DNA of 52,830 nt from an uncultured Anaerolineae bacterium. GTDB lineage: Bacteria; Chloroflexota; Anaerolineae; Anaerolineales; Villigracilaceae. Below, piece by piece: positions 17,694 through 23,926 of the stretch. The notes beneath the pieces are model-generated. The model saw only the letters and a program-made list of their open reading frames with translations, was not told where the DNA came from and made no database searches. A program made the translations under genes and the position numbers. The stretch spans positions 1 to 52,830 of the forward strand of contig CAIWAX010000276.1 in assembly GCA_903910795.1 (NCBI GenBank). Direction: 5' to 3'. The number at the start of each line of letters is the position of its first letter. Positions within the stretch are counted from its first letter, which is position 1.

Positions 17694-18038
17694 ATGATTT
17701 CACAAACTCTGGCACAAGAAGTCTCACACTTGGAAGCCGATCTCTGTTTCGCGCTGGCCGACCCGACACGCATTTTGATCCTGTACGCGCTGGATGAGCA
17801 GCCCCGCAACGTTTCAGAACTGACCAACGAACTCGGCTCCACCCAGCCAACCACCTCCCGCCATCTCAAGATTCTGCGCGACCGTGGGTTGGTTTACGCC
17901 GAGCGCCAGGGCACCACCATTACCTACCAGCTTTCAGATAAACGCCTGATCCAGGCCCTGGATTTATTGCGGAGTGTTTTACGCGATCGGATCGCTCACA
18001 ATGCCAACCTGATGGATGAGATTGAAGCTGTTGTCTGA
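17694..18038 (+). CDS. ArsR/SmtB-family transcriptional regulator
   Basis: 114 residues with a winged helix: ALADPTRILILYAL, then the recognition helix TQPTTSRHLKILRDRGLV and the wing ERQGTTITYQLS. The metal-binding ELCVCDL of true ArsR is absent. The only Cys is near residue 17 (LCFALAD), so the ligand is not a classical metal pair. It precedes a sulfur-respiration operon on the same strand by 44 nt and probably controls it, perhaps sensing a sulfur species. The start has GAGGAAG just upstream. Confidence 0.88.
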   Translation: MISQTLAQEVSHLEADLCFALADPTRILILYALDEQPRNVSELTNELGSTQPTTSRHLKILRDRGLVYAERQGTTITYQLSDKRLIQALDLLRSVLRDRIAHNANLMDEIEAVV

Positions 18039-19021: not shown

Positions 19022-19555
19022 ATGAAATTTGTGATGGATTACATCCGTAAAGAAGAGTGGTCGCCCTATGTGGCGGGTATCCTGCTGGGCATCGTCGGTG
19101 TTCTGGCGGTGCTGCTCAGCAACAGCCTGCTGGGCGCTTCCGGCGCTTTCGAGAGTATCGCCGGGATGATCGGCAAGGCGGTTGCCCCGCAGGCTTTCGA
19201 CAATATGTATTTCAACTTTATCATGCCGCCCGGCATCACCTGGGGCGTGATTTTGCTGGTAGGTGCATTCTTTGGTGGTACGGTCGGAGCACTCTCCAGC
19301 GGCACTTTCAAGTGGCGGCTGGTCAGCGATGACCAGTGGAAGAAGGTTTTCGGCCCCGAAACCTGGAAGCGCTGGGTGCTGGCCTTTCTGGGCGCGATTG
19401 TATTGGAATACGGCGCGGGCATCGCGGGCGGCTGCACCAGCGGTCTGGCGATTTCGGGCGGCATGTTGCTGGCACCCGCCGCTTACCTGTTCATGGCCGG
19501 GATGTTCGCCTCGGGCATCACAACCGCGTTGATCGTTTATCGCAAAGGCTATTAG
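19022..19555 (+). CDS. YeeE/YedE-family membrane transporter, first half
   Basis: 177 residues with four to five membrane helices. The signature GAGIAGGCTSGLAISGG carries the conserved Cys138, which in the thiosulfate transporter family (YeeE/TsuA, DUF395) relays the substrate through the membrane. The family often occurs as two half-size genes, and the second half follows 11 nt later. It should take up thiosulfate or another sulfur or selenium species. It lies inside a respiratory operon and not with cysteine synthesis, so supply to the reductase or release of its product is possible. Confidence 0.88.
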   Translation: MKFVMDYIRKEEWSPYVAGILLGIVGVLAVLLSNSLLGASGAFESIAGMIGKAVAPQAFDNMYFNFIMPPGITWGVILLVGAFFGGTVGALSSGTFKWRLVSDDQWKKVFGPETWKRWVLAFLGAIVLEYGAGIAGGCTSGLAISGGMLLAPAAYLFMAGMFASGITTALIVYRKGY

Positions 19556-19565
19556 GAGAATTGGC

Positions 19566-20117
19566 ATGGCTAACTATTTGATCGCAGGTGTGCTGGGTGT
19601 GTTCTTCGGGTTCTCCCTGAACAAAGCCGGCCTGACGAAGTATCACAAAATTGTGGGCGTGTTCCGCTTTACCGACCTGGCGGTCTTGAAATTCATGCTG
19701 ACCGCCCTGGTGGTTTCGATGATCGGCCTGTACGGGCTGCGCTCGCTGGGATTGATCGTCTTCCCATCCGTGCCTTCCACTTACATCGTTGGCAACATCA
19801 TCGGCGGGCTGATATTCGGGATCGGCATGGCCCTGACCGGGTACTGACCGGGTACTTGCGCCGCCGGTGGCGGCGAAGGCAAGCTCGACTATATCATCCC
19901 CGGTTTCCTCGGTTTTCTGGTTGGTGCAGTCATTTACGGTCTCACATATCAGTATGTATTTCCCCCTATTTCGGCAATTGCCAAGATTGGCAATGTGGTC
20001 ATGCCCGATCTATGGAATATCAATTCCTTCCTGTTCATCCTGCTGTTTGCCCTGATCACCGTTTTGTTGTTCTATTTGATCGACCGGGTTGGCTGGCAGC
20101 GCAAGGCTGATAACTAA
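19566..20117 (+). CDS. YeeE/YedE-family membrane transporter, second half; predicted selenoprotein (Sec94)
   Basis: 183 residues if the UGA at 19845-19847 is read as selenocysteine, and only 93 if it is a stop. The frame continues after the UGA for 89 codons to a TAA. It encodes PGTCAAGGGEGKLDYIIPG and two more membrane helices, exactly what the family has after its GYCPGT motif, so the UGA stands where the family has Cys. The result is U94-P-G-T-C98, a possible Sec/Cys pair. A SECIS-like hairpin follows at the right distance. AGGAG is 7 nt before the ATG. Sec would make the transporter far more reactive to sulfane sulfur or selenium. The Sec machinery genes are not in the window. Confidence 0.85.
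19855..19883 (+). promoter_or_regulatory. Bacterial SECIS-like element
   Basis: CTTGC-GCCGCC-GGT-GGCGGC-GAAG-GCAAG forms an inner 6-bp stem (19860-19865 with 19869-19874) and an outer 5-bp stem (19855-19859 with 19879-19883). The loop GGU lies at nucleotides 19-21 after the UGA. In E. coli fdhF the GGU of the SECIS loop, which binds SelB, is at the same distance. The hairpin is entirely coding, as required in bacteria. Confidence 0.7.
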
Positions 20118-20157: not shown

Positions 20158-22329
20158 ATGACAAAAACATTTACACGGCGCGACTTTCTAAAGCTGAGTG
20201 GGGCGGCTGCCGCGGCTTACGCGGTGGGGCAGTTTATCCCGCCGCTGGTGGCCAGGGCTGCGCGCGACAACGGTTTGATCGACCAGAACGGCGATGGTTA
20301 CATCCCCACCATGTGTGAGATGTGCGTGTGGCGCTGTGGCGTGCTGGCAAAAGTCAAAGATGGCAAAGTGGTCAAACTGGAAGGCAACCCCGAACACCCC
20401 AACTCGCGCGGCAAGCTGTGCGCCCGGGGTCAGTCCGGCCTGATGAACACCTATGATCCAGACCGGGTACTGACCCCGCTGATAAGGGTTGGCAAGCGCG
20501 GTGAAGGCAAATTCCGCCAGGCTTCCTGGGATGAAGCCCTGGGTGTGGTTGCCAGCAAGATGCTGGACATCAAACAAAAATATGGCCCGGAGACGATGTT
20601 GTTCTCCTCGACCCATAATATCTCCCAACCGGTATTTGAAAACATTCTGTACGGCTTCGGCTCCCCCAATTACGGCACCCAGCGCAGCCTGTGCTTTAAT
20701 GCCATGATTGTGGCAAACCTGATGACCTACGGCATGGAAGAACCGGGCCGCGATTACAGCCAGATCAAATACCTGATCCTGACCGGGCGCAACCTGACCG
20801 AGGCGATCTCCACCTCCGAAACCTCGGCGTTGATGGACATCATCGCGCAGGGCGCCAAAGTGGTGACGATTGACCCGCGCTTTACCAAGACCGCCTCAAA
20901 ATCGACGGAGTGGCTGCCGATCAAACCCGGCACGGACAGCGCTTTCCACCTGGCGATGATCAATGTCATCATCACTGAAAACCTGTACAACAAGAATTTT
21001 GTAGACACCTACACCAGCGGGTTTGACAAGCTGGCAGCCTCGATCAACAACTACACCCCTGATTGGGCTGAGAAAATCACCGGCATCCCCGCGGCAACCA
21101 TTGCACGCATCGCGCATGAGTTCTGCGCGGCGGGGCCAAGCGCGCTGGCGCATAACGGCTGGCGCACCTCCAATTTTCTAAACTCTTTCCAGACCCAGAG
21201 AGCCATCACCATCTTGAATGCATTGGTGGGAAACTGGGGCGTGACGCTCCACCCGGCCGCTGGTGAAGGCGCCGGCGCGCTTGGCTCCATCCCGCAGCCG
21301 GCTTATCCGCGTGTCACTGCACCACGGCTGGATGGTGTGCCATGGAAATATCCATTCGTACCGCTCAAGCTGGGAATATTCCAGGAAATGCGCGACGGCG
21401 CTCTCAAAGGCGATCCATACGAGGCGCACGGCTGGTTGATCTCCCGCCAAAACCCGGTGCTGGACCTGCCCGACCGGGCCAAGACGCTGGAGTTGTTTGG
21501 AAAACTGGATTTCATCGCGACAATTGACATCATCATGAACGACACCTCCTGGTTCTCGGATGTGGTTCTGCCGGAAGCCTCGTATCTGGAACGTTATGAC
21601 CCGCTCAACCTGGTGGGGGACAAAGTTTTCCTGCGCCAGCCGGTGATCGAACCGCAGGGTGATGCCAAATCCGCGCTCTGGATTTTCAAGGAACTGGGTA
21701 ACCGTCTCGGGATCGGTGACTATTTCCAGTACGCCGATGAAAAGGATTACATTAATCAGCAGTTGAAACCGCTGGGTGTGAATGTCGATCAAATCGCGAT
21801 GCACGGCTACGCGGCCCTGCCAGCGGGCGAGGCCAAGAGCGAGCTGCAATGGAGCACGCCCAGTGGCAAGATCGAGATTTTCTCTACGACCCTGCAAAAG
21901 GGCGGTTTTGCGGCCGTGCCTGAGTGGCAGGAGCCGCCGCAGCCCACAGAAGATGAATTTTATTTGATTTCGGGCAAGGTCGGCCAGCAAACCCAAATGG
22001 GTACGCAGAACAACAAACTCCTGCACAAATATGAGGACAGCCCGCGCATCTGGATGCACCCGGATGCCGCCTCCAAACGCGGCATCCGGGATTGGGATCT
22101 TGTGGCAGTCACCAGCCAGGCCGGGAATATCACCGTGCCGGTCTGGGTGACGCCCTCCATCCGGCCGGACTGTGTCTACATGACTCCCGGTTATGGACAC
22201 CTCTCCAAGGGATTGCGCACCGGCTACGGCGTAGGCGCCAGCGACTCGGTCCTGCATGTCACGTATACGGATCCGGTCAGCGGCTCCCAGGCGCTGACCC
22301 AGACACTTGTAACAGTAAAGAAAGCGTAG
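20158..22329 (+). CDS. Tat-exported molybdopterin oxidoreductase, PsrA/PhsA type
   Basis: 723 residues. The N-terminus TRRDFLKLSGAAAAA is a Tat signal. Cys53, 56, 60 and 88 bind a 4Fe-4S cluster, and Cys179 (QRSLCFNA) is the expected molybdenum ligand. The family (polysulfide, thiosulfate and tetrathionate reductases) has Cys there and formate dehydrogenases have Sec or Cys. With the ferredoxin and cytochrome b subunits that follow it forms a periplasm-facing membrane complex. The transporter and cytochrome genes upstream point to a sulfur compound as substrate. Thiosulfate or polysulfide is the best guess, and the sequence cannot decide the direction of the reaction. Confidence 0.88.
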   Translation: MTKTFTRRDFLKLSGAAAAAYAVGQFIPPLVARAARDNGLIDQNGDGYIPTMCEMCVWRCGVLAKVKDGKVVKLEGNPEHPNSRGKLCARGQSGLMNTYDPDRVLTPLIRVGKRGEGKFRQASWDEALGVVASKMLDIKQKYGPETMLFSSTHNISQPVFENILYGFGSPNYGTQRSLCFNAMIVANLMTYGMEEPGRDYSQIKYLILTGRNLTEAISTSETSALMDIIAQGAKVVTIDPRFTKTASKSTEWLPIKPGTDSAFHLAMINVIITENLYNKNFVDTYTSGFDKLAASINNYTPDWAEKITGIPAATIARIAHEFCAAGPSALAHNGWRTSNFLNSFQTQRAITILNALVGNWGVTLHPAAGEGAGALGSIPQPAYPRVTAPRLDGVPWKYPFVPLKLGIFQEMRDGALKGDPYEAHGWLISRQNPVLDLPDRAKTLELFGKLDFIATIDIIMNDTSWFSDVVLPEASYLERYDPLNLVGDKVFLRQPVIEPQGDAKSALWIFKELGNRLGIGDYFQYADEKDYINQQLKPLGVNVDQIAMHGYAALPAGEAKSELQWSTPSGKIEIFSTTLQKGGFAAVPEWQEPPQPTEDEFYLISGKVGQQTQMGTQNNKLLHKYEDSPRIWMHPDAASKRGIRDWDLVAVTSQAGNITVPVWVTPSIRPDCVYMTPGYGHLSKGLRTGYGVGASDSVLHVTYTDPVSGSQALTQTLVTVKKA

Positions 22330-22336
22330 GTGCAGA

Positions 22337-23122
22337 ATGGCTAACGACACCAAAAAACGCTACGGATTTGTGATCGATGTTTCGCGCTGTATTGACTGCC
22401 GCGCCTGTATGGTGGCCTGCAGCGTAGAAAATACGGTACCATACAATCACACCCGCATTTGGGTGCATGACCAGGGTGTGCAGGGCGATTGGCCCAACCT
22501 GAAACGCACTTTTGTGCCCTATAACTGTATGCACTGTGACAACCCGCCCTGTACCGAGGTGTGCGTCAGCGGCGCAACGTACAAGAACAAGGATAACGGA
22601 CTGGTGCTGGTTGACCAGGAGGCTTGCATCGGCTGCGGGTTCTGTGCCGAAGCCTGCCCGTATGATGTGCGTTATATTGACGAACAGCGCGGCGTGGTGG
22701 ATAAGTGCAACGGTTGTTTCCAACGGGTAGAAACCGGAATGATGCCGGCTTGCGTTCAAACCTGTGTGGGCGGTTCGCGCCTGTTTGGCGATTTCAATGA
22801 CCCCGAGTCAACCGTTTCCAAAGCCTTGAGCAGCGCATCCTCCGCCATCCGCCTGGATGCGAAGCGCCAGGATGGGAACAGCACCGGGCCGAACATTTAC
22901 TATATCCATGCCCCGGCGGAGATGCTGAACCTGGTCACGACCGACAAGTTTGGACAGATGGAAGGCAAGGTTCCGGAAGCGTCAGAGTATACGCTTTCGG
23001 AAGAGGTCTGGAAAAAATTGATCATTCCGGTTATCGGTCTGGCAACGGTTGCCACTTTCGGCGTACAGGCAGTGTTCTTCACCAAGCAGCTTGTCGAAGG
23101 TGAAAAAGAGTTTGAGGAGTAA
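22337..23122 (+). CDS. Four-cluster 4Fe-4S ferredoxin subunit (PsrB-like) with C-terminal anchor
   Basis: 261 residues with 16 Cys in four groups: 18/21/24/28, 64/67/72/76, 97/100/103/107 and 124/127/139/143. This is the layout of the electron-transfer subunit of DMSO-reductase-type complexes. A C-terminal hydrophobic segment (about 232-250) anchors it to the membrane, as in formate dehydrogenase beta subunits. It passes electrons between the molybdoenzyme and the cytochrome b. The start is 7 nt after the preceding stop and 3 nt separate it from the next gene. Confidence 0.92.
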   Translation: MANDTKKRYGFVIDVSRCIDCRACMVACSVENTVPYNHTRIWVHDQGVQGDWPNLKRTFVPYNCMHCDNPPCTEVCVSGATYKNKDNGLVLVDQEACIGCGFCAEACPYDVRYIDEQRGVVDKCNGCFQRVETGMMPACVQTCVGGSRLFGDFNDPESTVSKALSSASSAIRLDAKRQDGNSTGPNIYYIHAPAEMLNLVTTDKFGQMEGKVPEASEYTLSEEVWKKLIIPVIGLATVATFGVQAVFFTKQLVEGEKEFEE

Positions 23123-23125
23123 GCC

Positions 23126-23926
23126 ATGAGCGCCACAAATACCCTCTCGGTGGCAGAACAGAAAAGTCTGCGCGCCAAAATGTATAAAAAGCACAATCTG
23201 GCCAATATTCTCACCCATTGGTTCAACGTTTTGTCATGGTTGATGTTGCTGCCAACCGGGGTGGCGATCATCGCTTCTCCGCGCCTGGGAATCACCCCGC
23301 TGTGGATCCAGGAATGGTTCCGTAATATGTTTGGCGGCACAGCCAACTTGATCACTTTCCATTACACAGTTGGCTTTGTGTGGATATTTATCCTGATGTT
23401 CAATGTCTTTGTCGGCTGGCGTAGATATTTTATTCCCTTCGCGGCCAACCGCATGATTATGGATAAGGATGATATGCAGTGGATGATGATCAAACCGCTG
23501 CAAATGCTGGGACTGCGCAAGGGCGAACCCCTGCCGCCGCAAGATGCTTATAACGCCGGACAAAAGGTCTACAGTTACTTTGTGGTGTTGGGCACAGCGG
23601 GGATCATGGTCAGCGGGCCGGTGATGGTTTTGAAGGAATATTTTCCGCCGATCATCAAACAAATAGCCCAGCCGGTGCATTTCCTGTCGGTATTCATGAT
23701 CGTGGCCTGGCTGTTCATCCATGTCTATATGGGCGCGATCTTCCCAGAAGAAAAGGAAGCCTTTTTCTCGATGTTCACGGGCAAGGTCTCAGCCTGGTAT
23801 GCCAAAAACCACCATGCCAAGTGGTATTGGCAAAAGATGCAAGAGGAAATGGATTGGGAAGATGAAGTCAGCCAGAAGGTCGCCGCGGAAGCCAGCGCCA
23901 GCCATGATGGCGCCGCCGCGGATTGA
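23126..23926 (+). CDS. Membrane cytochrome b subunit (formate dehydrogenase gamma / PhsC type)
   Basis: 266 residues with four membrane helices. His residues in ILTHWFNV, ITFHYTVG, QPVHFLSV and LFIHVYMG are placed to bind two b-type hemes, as in the formate dehydrogenase gamma and PhsC family. The NrfD family found in many Psr complexes has no hemes, so this complex is of the heme b type. It should exchange electrons with the quinone pool. It is the last gene of the operon. GGAG precedes the ATG. Confidence 0.9.
   Translation: MSATNTLSVAEQKSLRAKMYKKHNLANILTHWFNVLSWLMLLPTGVAIIASPRLGITPLWIQEWFRNMFGGTANLITFHYTVGFVWIFILMFNVFVGWRRYFIPFAANRMIMDKDDMQWMMIKPLQMLGLRKGEPLPPQDAYNAGQKVYSYFVVLGTAGIMVSGPVMVLKEYFPPIIKQIAQPVHFLSVFMIVAWLFIHVYMGAIFPEEKEAFFSMFTGKVSAWYAKNHHAKWYWQKMQEEMDWEDEVSQKVAAEASASHDGAAAD

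Follow-up and report, generated by a model that had tools for sequence, protein, structure and literature searches.

The majority of known bacterial selenoproteins are redox enzymes. According to PMC13188914, selenocysteine (Sec) is also predicted in a few transporter parts, and reviews list a YeeE/YedE selenoprotein of Pfam family PF04143 with the motif GUxSG, exemplified by WP_012471001.1 (PMC13188914, PMC9312934). TsuA/YeeE of Spirochaeta thermophila (6leo, 8k1r) is a single chain (339 residues in 6leo), described with C293, C91 and C22 aligned across the membrane and with a hydrogen-bonding path as its proposed mechanism (PMC11073785); Cys91 and Cys293 are reported to be indispensable (PMC11582611). 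In Serratia, two adjacent short PF04143 genes encode PmpB, which carries the Cys91-type cysteine, and PmpA, which carries the Cys293-type, and a heterodimer has been proposed (PMC11582611). The locus described here likewise consists of two adjacent short PF04143 genes with a Cys91-type and a Cys293-type residue, and thus of two chains where TsuA has one, but it differs from Serratia PmpA/PmpB in that Sec is predicted in place of the PmpB cysteine, the halves are longer (~180 aa versus ~130 aa) and the pair belongs to a molybdoenzyme operon.

Like the YeeE/YedE selenoprotein of the reviews, the gene studied here is a PF04143 member with a predicted Sec in a conserved transporter motif, but unlike that entry it adjoins a polysulfide-reductase-like operon. 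Compared by printed motif, GUxSG resembles the GCTSG of the partner half, whereas the Sec of the present gene lies in the G[YF]UPGTC of the other half. The gene therefore falls outside GUxSG: its own motif reads GYUPGTC, and the partner motif GCTSG keeps its Cys upstream in all 65 UGA loci that leave room for it. The term 'Chloroflexi' is absent from the main texts of PMC13188914 and PMC9312934, and no description of a G[YF]UPGTC Sec variant was found in the paper listings and passages searched, so that an earlier mention is possible. The G[YF]UPGTC Sec motif in this operon appears to be a new variant of the YeeE/YedE selenoprotein.

The window, i.e., the whole 52,830-nucleotide stretch of DNA that was analysed, derives from an uncultured Anaerolineae bacterium. 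On its forward strand a frame of 184 codons opens with ATG at 19566, runs for 93 codons to TGA at 19845-19847, continues for 89 sense codons and ends with TAA at 20115-20117. The in-frame TGA is codon 94. The first-pass annotation had placed a UGA-encoded Sec94, followed by Cys98 and 89 open codons, at this position, and its coordinates, frame and residue numbers were all correct. It had also expected an automatic caller to split the gene, which was borne out: under translation table 11 the ORF covers 19566-19847 and an ordinary caller would therefore end the gene at residue 93, the in-frame remainder offering only a 40-aa GTG ORF (19995-20117). Gene finders can be expected to truncate the operon's channel gene at 93 residues wherever the UGA is present. 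In another frame, an 84-aa TTG ORF (19856-20110) overlaps the second part of the gene, and its equivalent in a paralogous copy is 89 aa long (L021:3480-3749). These overlapping ORFs are probably a by-product of the sequence that the paralogues share, and they may be annotated by a gene caller. The UGA also lies inside a direct repeat (19836-19856), formed by the ten bases ACCGGGTACT at 19836 and again at 19847, and a further copy of them is found at 20462, within the molybdoenzyme gene. Because the exact repeat is absent from the paralogue and from other UGA genes, it is probably incidental.

Table 1 Features of the Sec-channel operon in the window
Feature	Coordinates	Strand	Basis
ArsR-family regulator upstream of operon	17694..18038	+	HTH_5 65.1 bits; 73% identical copy before paralogous operon
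Triheme c-type cytochrome, 309 aa	18083..19012	+	Three CxxCH; c7/c3-type Pfam matches below cut-off
PmpA-type partner half, 177 aa, single Cys138 in GGCTSG	19022..19555	+	PF04143 64.3 bits, profile positions 171-308
Predicted selenoprotein gene, PmpB-type half of split YeeE/TsuA channel, 183 aa with Sec94	19566..20117	+	Sec reading, PF04143, TsuA alignment
In-frame UGA, codon 94, read as Sec (predicted)	19845..19847	+	Homologue column: UGA 35, Cys 20
Cys98 codon, candidate resolving or next-relay cysteine	19857..19859	+	Cys in 74/75 distinct UGA genes, 10/20 Cys genes
Bacterial SECIS-like hairpin, 7-bp stem, GGU loop 19866-19868	19859..19875	+	Comparative folding, pairing counts
Molybdopterin oxidoreductase, Tat signal, PsrA/PhsA-like, 723 aa	20158..22329	+	NF012032, 2vpw
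4Fe-4S electron-transfer subunit	22337..23122	+	Fer4_11 103.9 bits; TtrB/NrfC/DsrO-like, all under cut-off
Membrane cytochrome b561-type subunit	23126..23926	+	PF01292 68.7 bits

When the UGA is translated, the PF04143 (Sulf_transp) match extends from residue 31 to residue 171 and spans the Sec position; both halves pass the gathering score of the family (68.7 and 64.3 bits versus 27). A phmmer search matched residues 9-106 to TsuA of S. thermophila (6leo, E 4.7e-5); in this alignment residue 94 falls on Cys91, residue 98 on Val95 and Thr24 on Cys22. Compared with TsuA, the gene thus has Thr at the Cys22 position and an extra cysteine four residues past Sec94. Since residue 94 aligns with Cys91, the cysteine type of PmpB, we assign the gene to the PmpB-type half, with Sec. 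It had been called the second YeeE/YedE half in the first-pass annotation, of which the family assignment stands; it is second in the operon, but corresponds to the N-terminal-type (PmpB-like) half of TsuA/YeeE. The partner half gave no match against PDB, and its Cys293-type assignment derives from the half of the profile that it matches and from its sole cysteine. Adjacent half genes with a Cys91-type and a Cys293-type residue are the hallmark of the PmpAB split channel, and the two halves very likely form a channel of this type. The read-through protein passed no model of NCBIfam release 20, the TsuA models NF052577 and NF041049 scoring 32.0 bits (cut-off 400) and 28.8 bits (cut-off 645). 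An AlphaFold model of the lone half was weak (pLDDT 69.7, pTM 0.53) and Foldseek matched it to no solved fold, TsuA included; we therefore draw no structural claim from it.

The channel pair sits between the triheme cytochrome and a polysulfide/thiosulfate-reductase-like molybdoenzyme. What the operon shares with PsrABC/PhsABC is this catalytic subunit, whose best solved relative, 2vpw, deposited as 'thiosulfate reductase', is matched over the full length (residues 6-723, E 5e-127). With 595.8 bits against the PhsA equivalog model NF012032 (cut-off 694), the enzyme is a close relative of that group, not a member. Beyond PsrABC/PhsABC, the operon contains the triheme cytochrome and the channel pair, and in the window its membrane subunit is of the b561 type. 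This arrangement recurs among loci with the UGA. Where there is room, the PmpA half (65/65) and a triheme cytochrome homologue (58/59) lie upstream and a molybdoenzyme homologue (53/56) downstream, and a homologue of the 4Fe-4S subunit is present as well (34/37). The fewer Cys loci with room have the cytochrome in 16 of 18, the PmpA half in 19 of 20 and the molybdoenzyme in four of seven cases.

Column 94 was followed through relatives of the gene in two ways. A set of 61 genomes, the window's own included, yielded 13 close protein matches, eight of them with one TGA. A sample of 400 genomes of the order included 51 with a match at E 1e-30 or better, in 54 gene rows: UGA occupies the column in 34 rows from 31 genomes, Cys in 20 rows from 20 genomes (codons TGC in 18, TGT in two). 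With one genome added, the 55 protein-search rows have UGA in 35 and Cys in 20, and no other residue, which agrees with the first-pass view of the UGA as the replacement of a conserved Cys. Far from all having a sense codon at this place, the relatives include further UGA loci recovered by a pattern scan of a collection of 84,980 species. The pattern, G[YF]-UGA-P-G-T-x-[AV]-A-G, placed no constraint on third bases or on residue 98 and matched 78 times; eight matches in unrelated DNA were dropped, leaving 70 homologous UGA loci, a set that overlaps with that of the protein search. By record name 64 of these are Chloroflexota, two are only 'bacterium' (L118, L155), one is Tectomicrobia (L141) and three carry Bacillota names (L134, Bacillota; L186, Clostridiales; L189, Thermoanaerobacteraceae), although binning errors are possible in such assemblies.

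Merging identical 150-base stretches reduced 125 rows to 95 distinct genes, 75 with UGA and 20 with Cys, a natural gene set that allows direct comparison of the two forms. Their proportion is not a natural frequency, because the two forms were sampled differently (the 20 Cys genes come from the protein search within the order only, 40 of the 75 UGA genes from the pattern scan only) and the pattern fixed the motif around the UGA. A quick tree of 94 of the 95 genes (one short row omitted), calculated with columns 94 and 98 masked, requires 10 exchanges between Sec and Cys, or five on starred branches alone; 39 of the 91 inner branches are open, so that the direction of change is not given.

Taken as a whole, the explanation that we consider likely is that the UGA is decoded as Sec in a PmpB-type half and that Sec94 serves as the nucleophile halfway along a relay of sulfane sulfur. 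SelB and tRNA-Sec would decode codon 94 as Sec by means of the hairpin just 3' of it, and the product would pair with the upstream-encoded half to give a heterodimeric YeeE/TsuA channel, in which Sec94 would stand where TsuA has its second relay cysteine (Cys91), within the membrane-buried path. The cargo may be sulfane sulfur (as zero-valent sulfur, persulfide or thiosulfate) that the neighbouring molybdoenzyme complex produces or consumes; it would be passed from Cys138 of the partner to Sec94 and then to Cys98 or directly to the cytoplasm. At neutral pH a selenolate is in its ionised form, and both its attack on sulfur and its release of sulfur are quicker than those of a thiolate. With selenium, the middle step would gain in nucleophilicity and in leaving-group quality. 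We lean towards Sec94 being a chemical relay residue. A Sec residue in the buried cysteine ladder of a sulfur channel would suggest relay chemistry on the sulfur atom, beyond a mere hydrogen-bonding path. A broader proposal remains tentative, namely that a selenolate relay in the channel path supports selenium-accelerated group translocation of sulfane sulfur between molybdoenzyme chemistry outside and the cytoplasm, and that this is common to Chloroflexota and Bacillota.

Inserted Sec could also serve redox chemistry instead, the pair being a membrane redox module or sensor in which a Sec94-Cys98 bond exchanges electrons with the cytochrome and the molybdoenzyme. Residue 98 is Cys in 74 of the 75 distinct UGA genes versus 10 of the 20 Cys genes, and this companionship, together with the cytochrome upstream of nearly every UGA locus with room (58/59), fits such a module. 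Yet a tree-aware test of the Sec94/Cys98 pairing was not significant, the independent pairs being too few (five on starred branches), and two more distant UGA genes have Ser at this position, L141, which is the one exception among the 75, and L196, which lies outside the 75-gene set; Cys98 is therefore not strictly required. The PF04143 membership, the match to TsuA Cys91 and the partner cysteine retained in 65 of 65 loci suit a sulfur path, and we regard the redox module as unlikely.

Transport of selenium species, for selenoprotein synthesis or selenium respiration, is a further function that the pair could have in the manner of YedE, which has been proposed as a selenium transporter (PMC9312934). 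The read-through protein does match the YedE/FdhT model NF033796, at 27.8 bits and thus far below the cut-off of 350, but the two TsuA profiles score slightly higher, and the molybdoenzyme's closest solved relative was deposited as a thiosulfate reductase. No sel gene was found among the neighbouring proteins scanned, and Methanococcus YedE, when tested, showed no clear link to selenium species (PMC11097638). Selenium transport is accordingly improbable, and a sulfane-sulfur relay through Sec94 is the reading retained here.

The decoding step itself is addressed by the RNA 3' of the UGA. In bacteria, Sec insertion relies on a hairpin directly 3' of the UGA (bSECIS), whose small apical loop contains a G and has the usual spacing from the UGA. 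The window has a hairpin of this description, with the stem CGCCGCC/GGCGGCG and a GGU loop that follows the UGA after 18 bases. Against dinucleotide shuffles this hairpin shows no clear excess stability (z -1.24; 73 of 200 shuffles as good), and since the folding of the single window is unremarkable the evidence is comparative. Bases +11 to +40 were folded and a hairpin was counted if it had at least five pairs and a loop starting with G or holding GG, a rule and a stretch that were picked after an earlier fold of the whole 48 bases had been seen. By this rule, 66 of 67 distinct UGA windows have a hairpin, whereas 19.0 are predicted by synonymous recoding; the Cys genes show no excess (5/20 versus 5.3 predicted). 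The UGA windows of the protein search only, which owe nothing to the pattern, have it in 32 of 32 cases (8.5 predicted). Fold energies relative to recoding differ between UGA and Cys genes with p 9e-10, uncorrected for relatedness. L141 was excluded from these counts and from the pN/pS counts below.

The commonest loops are GGU (29), GGUC (18), GGC (8) and CGGGA (7). Pairing occurs in two registers, and one or other of these reaches six or more pairs in 62 of 67 distinct UGA windows versus 3 of 20 Cys windows; an RNAalifold consensus of all UGA windows mixes the two. When the whole 48 bases were folded, the gain in stability was less marked: the mean z was -0.78 in UGA genes (14/74 under 5%) and +0.54 in Cys genes, and the commonest hairpin class (GGUC, 17 genes) adopted a different best fold. 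Third bases were compared, codon by codon, only in genes that encode the commonest amino acid there. Their entropies at codons 99, 100, 102 and 103 are 0.68, 0.72, 0.00 and 0.45 in UGA genes versus 1.32, 1.84, 1.88 and 1.53 in Cys genes, and the relation is reversed at codon 101, in the loop (1.55 versus 0.65). The UGA-specific hairpin lends independent support to the Sec reading. One Cys-form gene, L068 of genome G131, resembles the Sec form in codons 99-103 and has Sec-form neighbours in the tree; it is perhaps a fossil SECIS left by a recent change from Sec to Cys.

The first-pass annotation had tied its reading to the presence of Sec machinery, and the genome of the window (5.0 Mb in 496 contigs, 92% complete) has all four components above their family cut-offs. 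SelB (349 bits) comprises the GTPase, the beta-barrel and two SelB winged-helix domains; selA (515 bits) lies on a contig other than that of selB, and an ORF upstream of selB that was considered as selA was ruled out by profile search. The tRNA-Sec scores 73 bits and is also called SeC by ARAGORN. The selD gene (351 bits; L117, contig 150:5746-6681) has an in-frame UGA within the motif SSCAGUASK and is probably a second selenoprotein gene of this genome. Across the order, selA (E 1e-60 or better) occurs in 29 of the 31 UGA genomes and in 323 of all 400, so that the machinery does not discriminate genomes with the UGA gene from the others. The two UGA genomes lacking selA do have a tRNA-Sec, which scores 65.5 bits in G358 and 69.1 bits in G365. 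Conversely, six of 32 UGA genomes have no tRNA-Sec above 60 bits (G049, G279, G348, G224, G235 and G262, the last with partial ones at 51.3 bits), and all six have selA.

A paralogous operon lies on contig 289 of this genome, and codon 94 of its half-channel gene is likewise TGA. The paralogues share 449 of 546 bases and differ in 97 (dS 0.94, dN 0.06), yet 68 consecutive bases, starting with codon 92 and ending on the second base of codon 114, are identical; between the two operons, identity is 70% for the molybdoenzymes and 73% for the ArsR regulators. The membrane subunits are of different kinds, b561-type at 23126-23926 and NrfD/HybB-type at L021:6786-7991. Chance or a sequencing error is ruled out as the origin of the UGA by its presence at the same codon in this second operon, in 31 of 400 genomes and at 70 pattern-scan loci. 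Pooled over 70 UGA genes, pN/pS amounts to 0.27 in the part preceding the UGA and to 0.36 in the part that follows (+1 to +80), with pS near saturation (about 0.7; 0.69 in the latter part). Cys genes give the same values, 0.27 before and 0.36 after column 94, and the part after the UGA is thus under the same constraint as in Cys genes. In the less diverged pairs of UGA genes the medians are 0.31 and 0.34 (311 pairs, none reaching 1 after the UGA).

This constraint bears on whether the UGA could be a true stop, the gene then being a pseudogene or encoding one protein of 93 aa and perhaps another of 40 aa. The table 11 ORFs would suit such a pair of products, and UGA does terminate 11 of the 34 long ORFs in the window, which also rules out a reassignment of UGA in this genome. 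However, neither product would include codons 95 to 142, where the hairpin and the remainder of the motif lie, purifying selection acts on either side of the UGA as strongly as in Cys genes, and 35 of 55 protein-search rows have the UGA, with Cys in the remaining 20 and two UGA copies in one genome, all of which makes a true stop very improbable. Still less probable is that a near-cognate ordinary tRNA reads through the UGA free of selenium: UGA-C is a leaky stop context and CC follows the UGA in 35 of 35 UGA rows of the protein search, but the Pro codon accounts for these bases, and read-through gives no reason for the hairpin constraint confined to UGA genes, the alternation of UGA and Cys or the Sec machinery. 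On this comparative sequence evidence, Sec is almost certainly inserted at codon 94.

Two divergent loci also have the UGA in this column. At L196:1904-1906 (minus strand; genome G043, contig 110, same order), a PmpB half fused to a rhodanese domain contains an in-frame UGA in GYUPGTS. Its relatives in a 400-genome sample of the phylum have Cys in this column in 15 of 15 cases, as read from the alignments, so that this UGA reflects either a single, possibly independent acquisition of Sec by a sulfurtransferase-linked channel or a fault in one assembly. The other is L141:1729-1731, a divergent YeeE half in a record named Candidatus Tectomicrobia, which combines the UGA with Ser at position 98 and is a lone case like L196.
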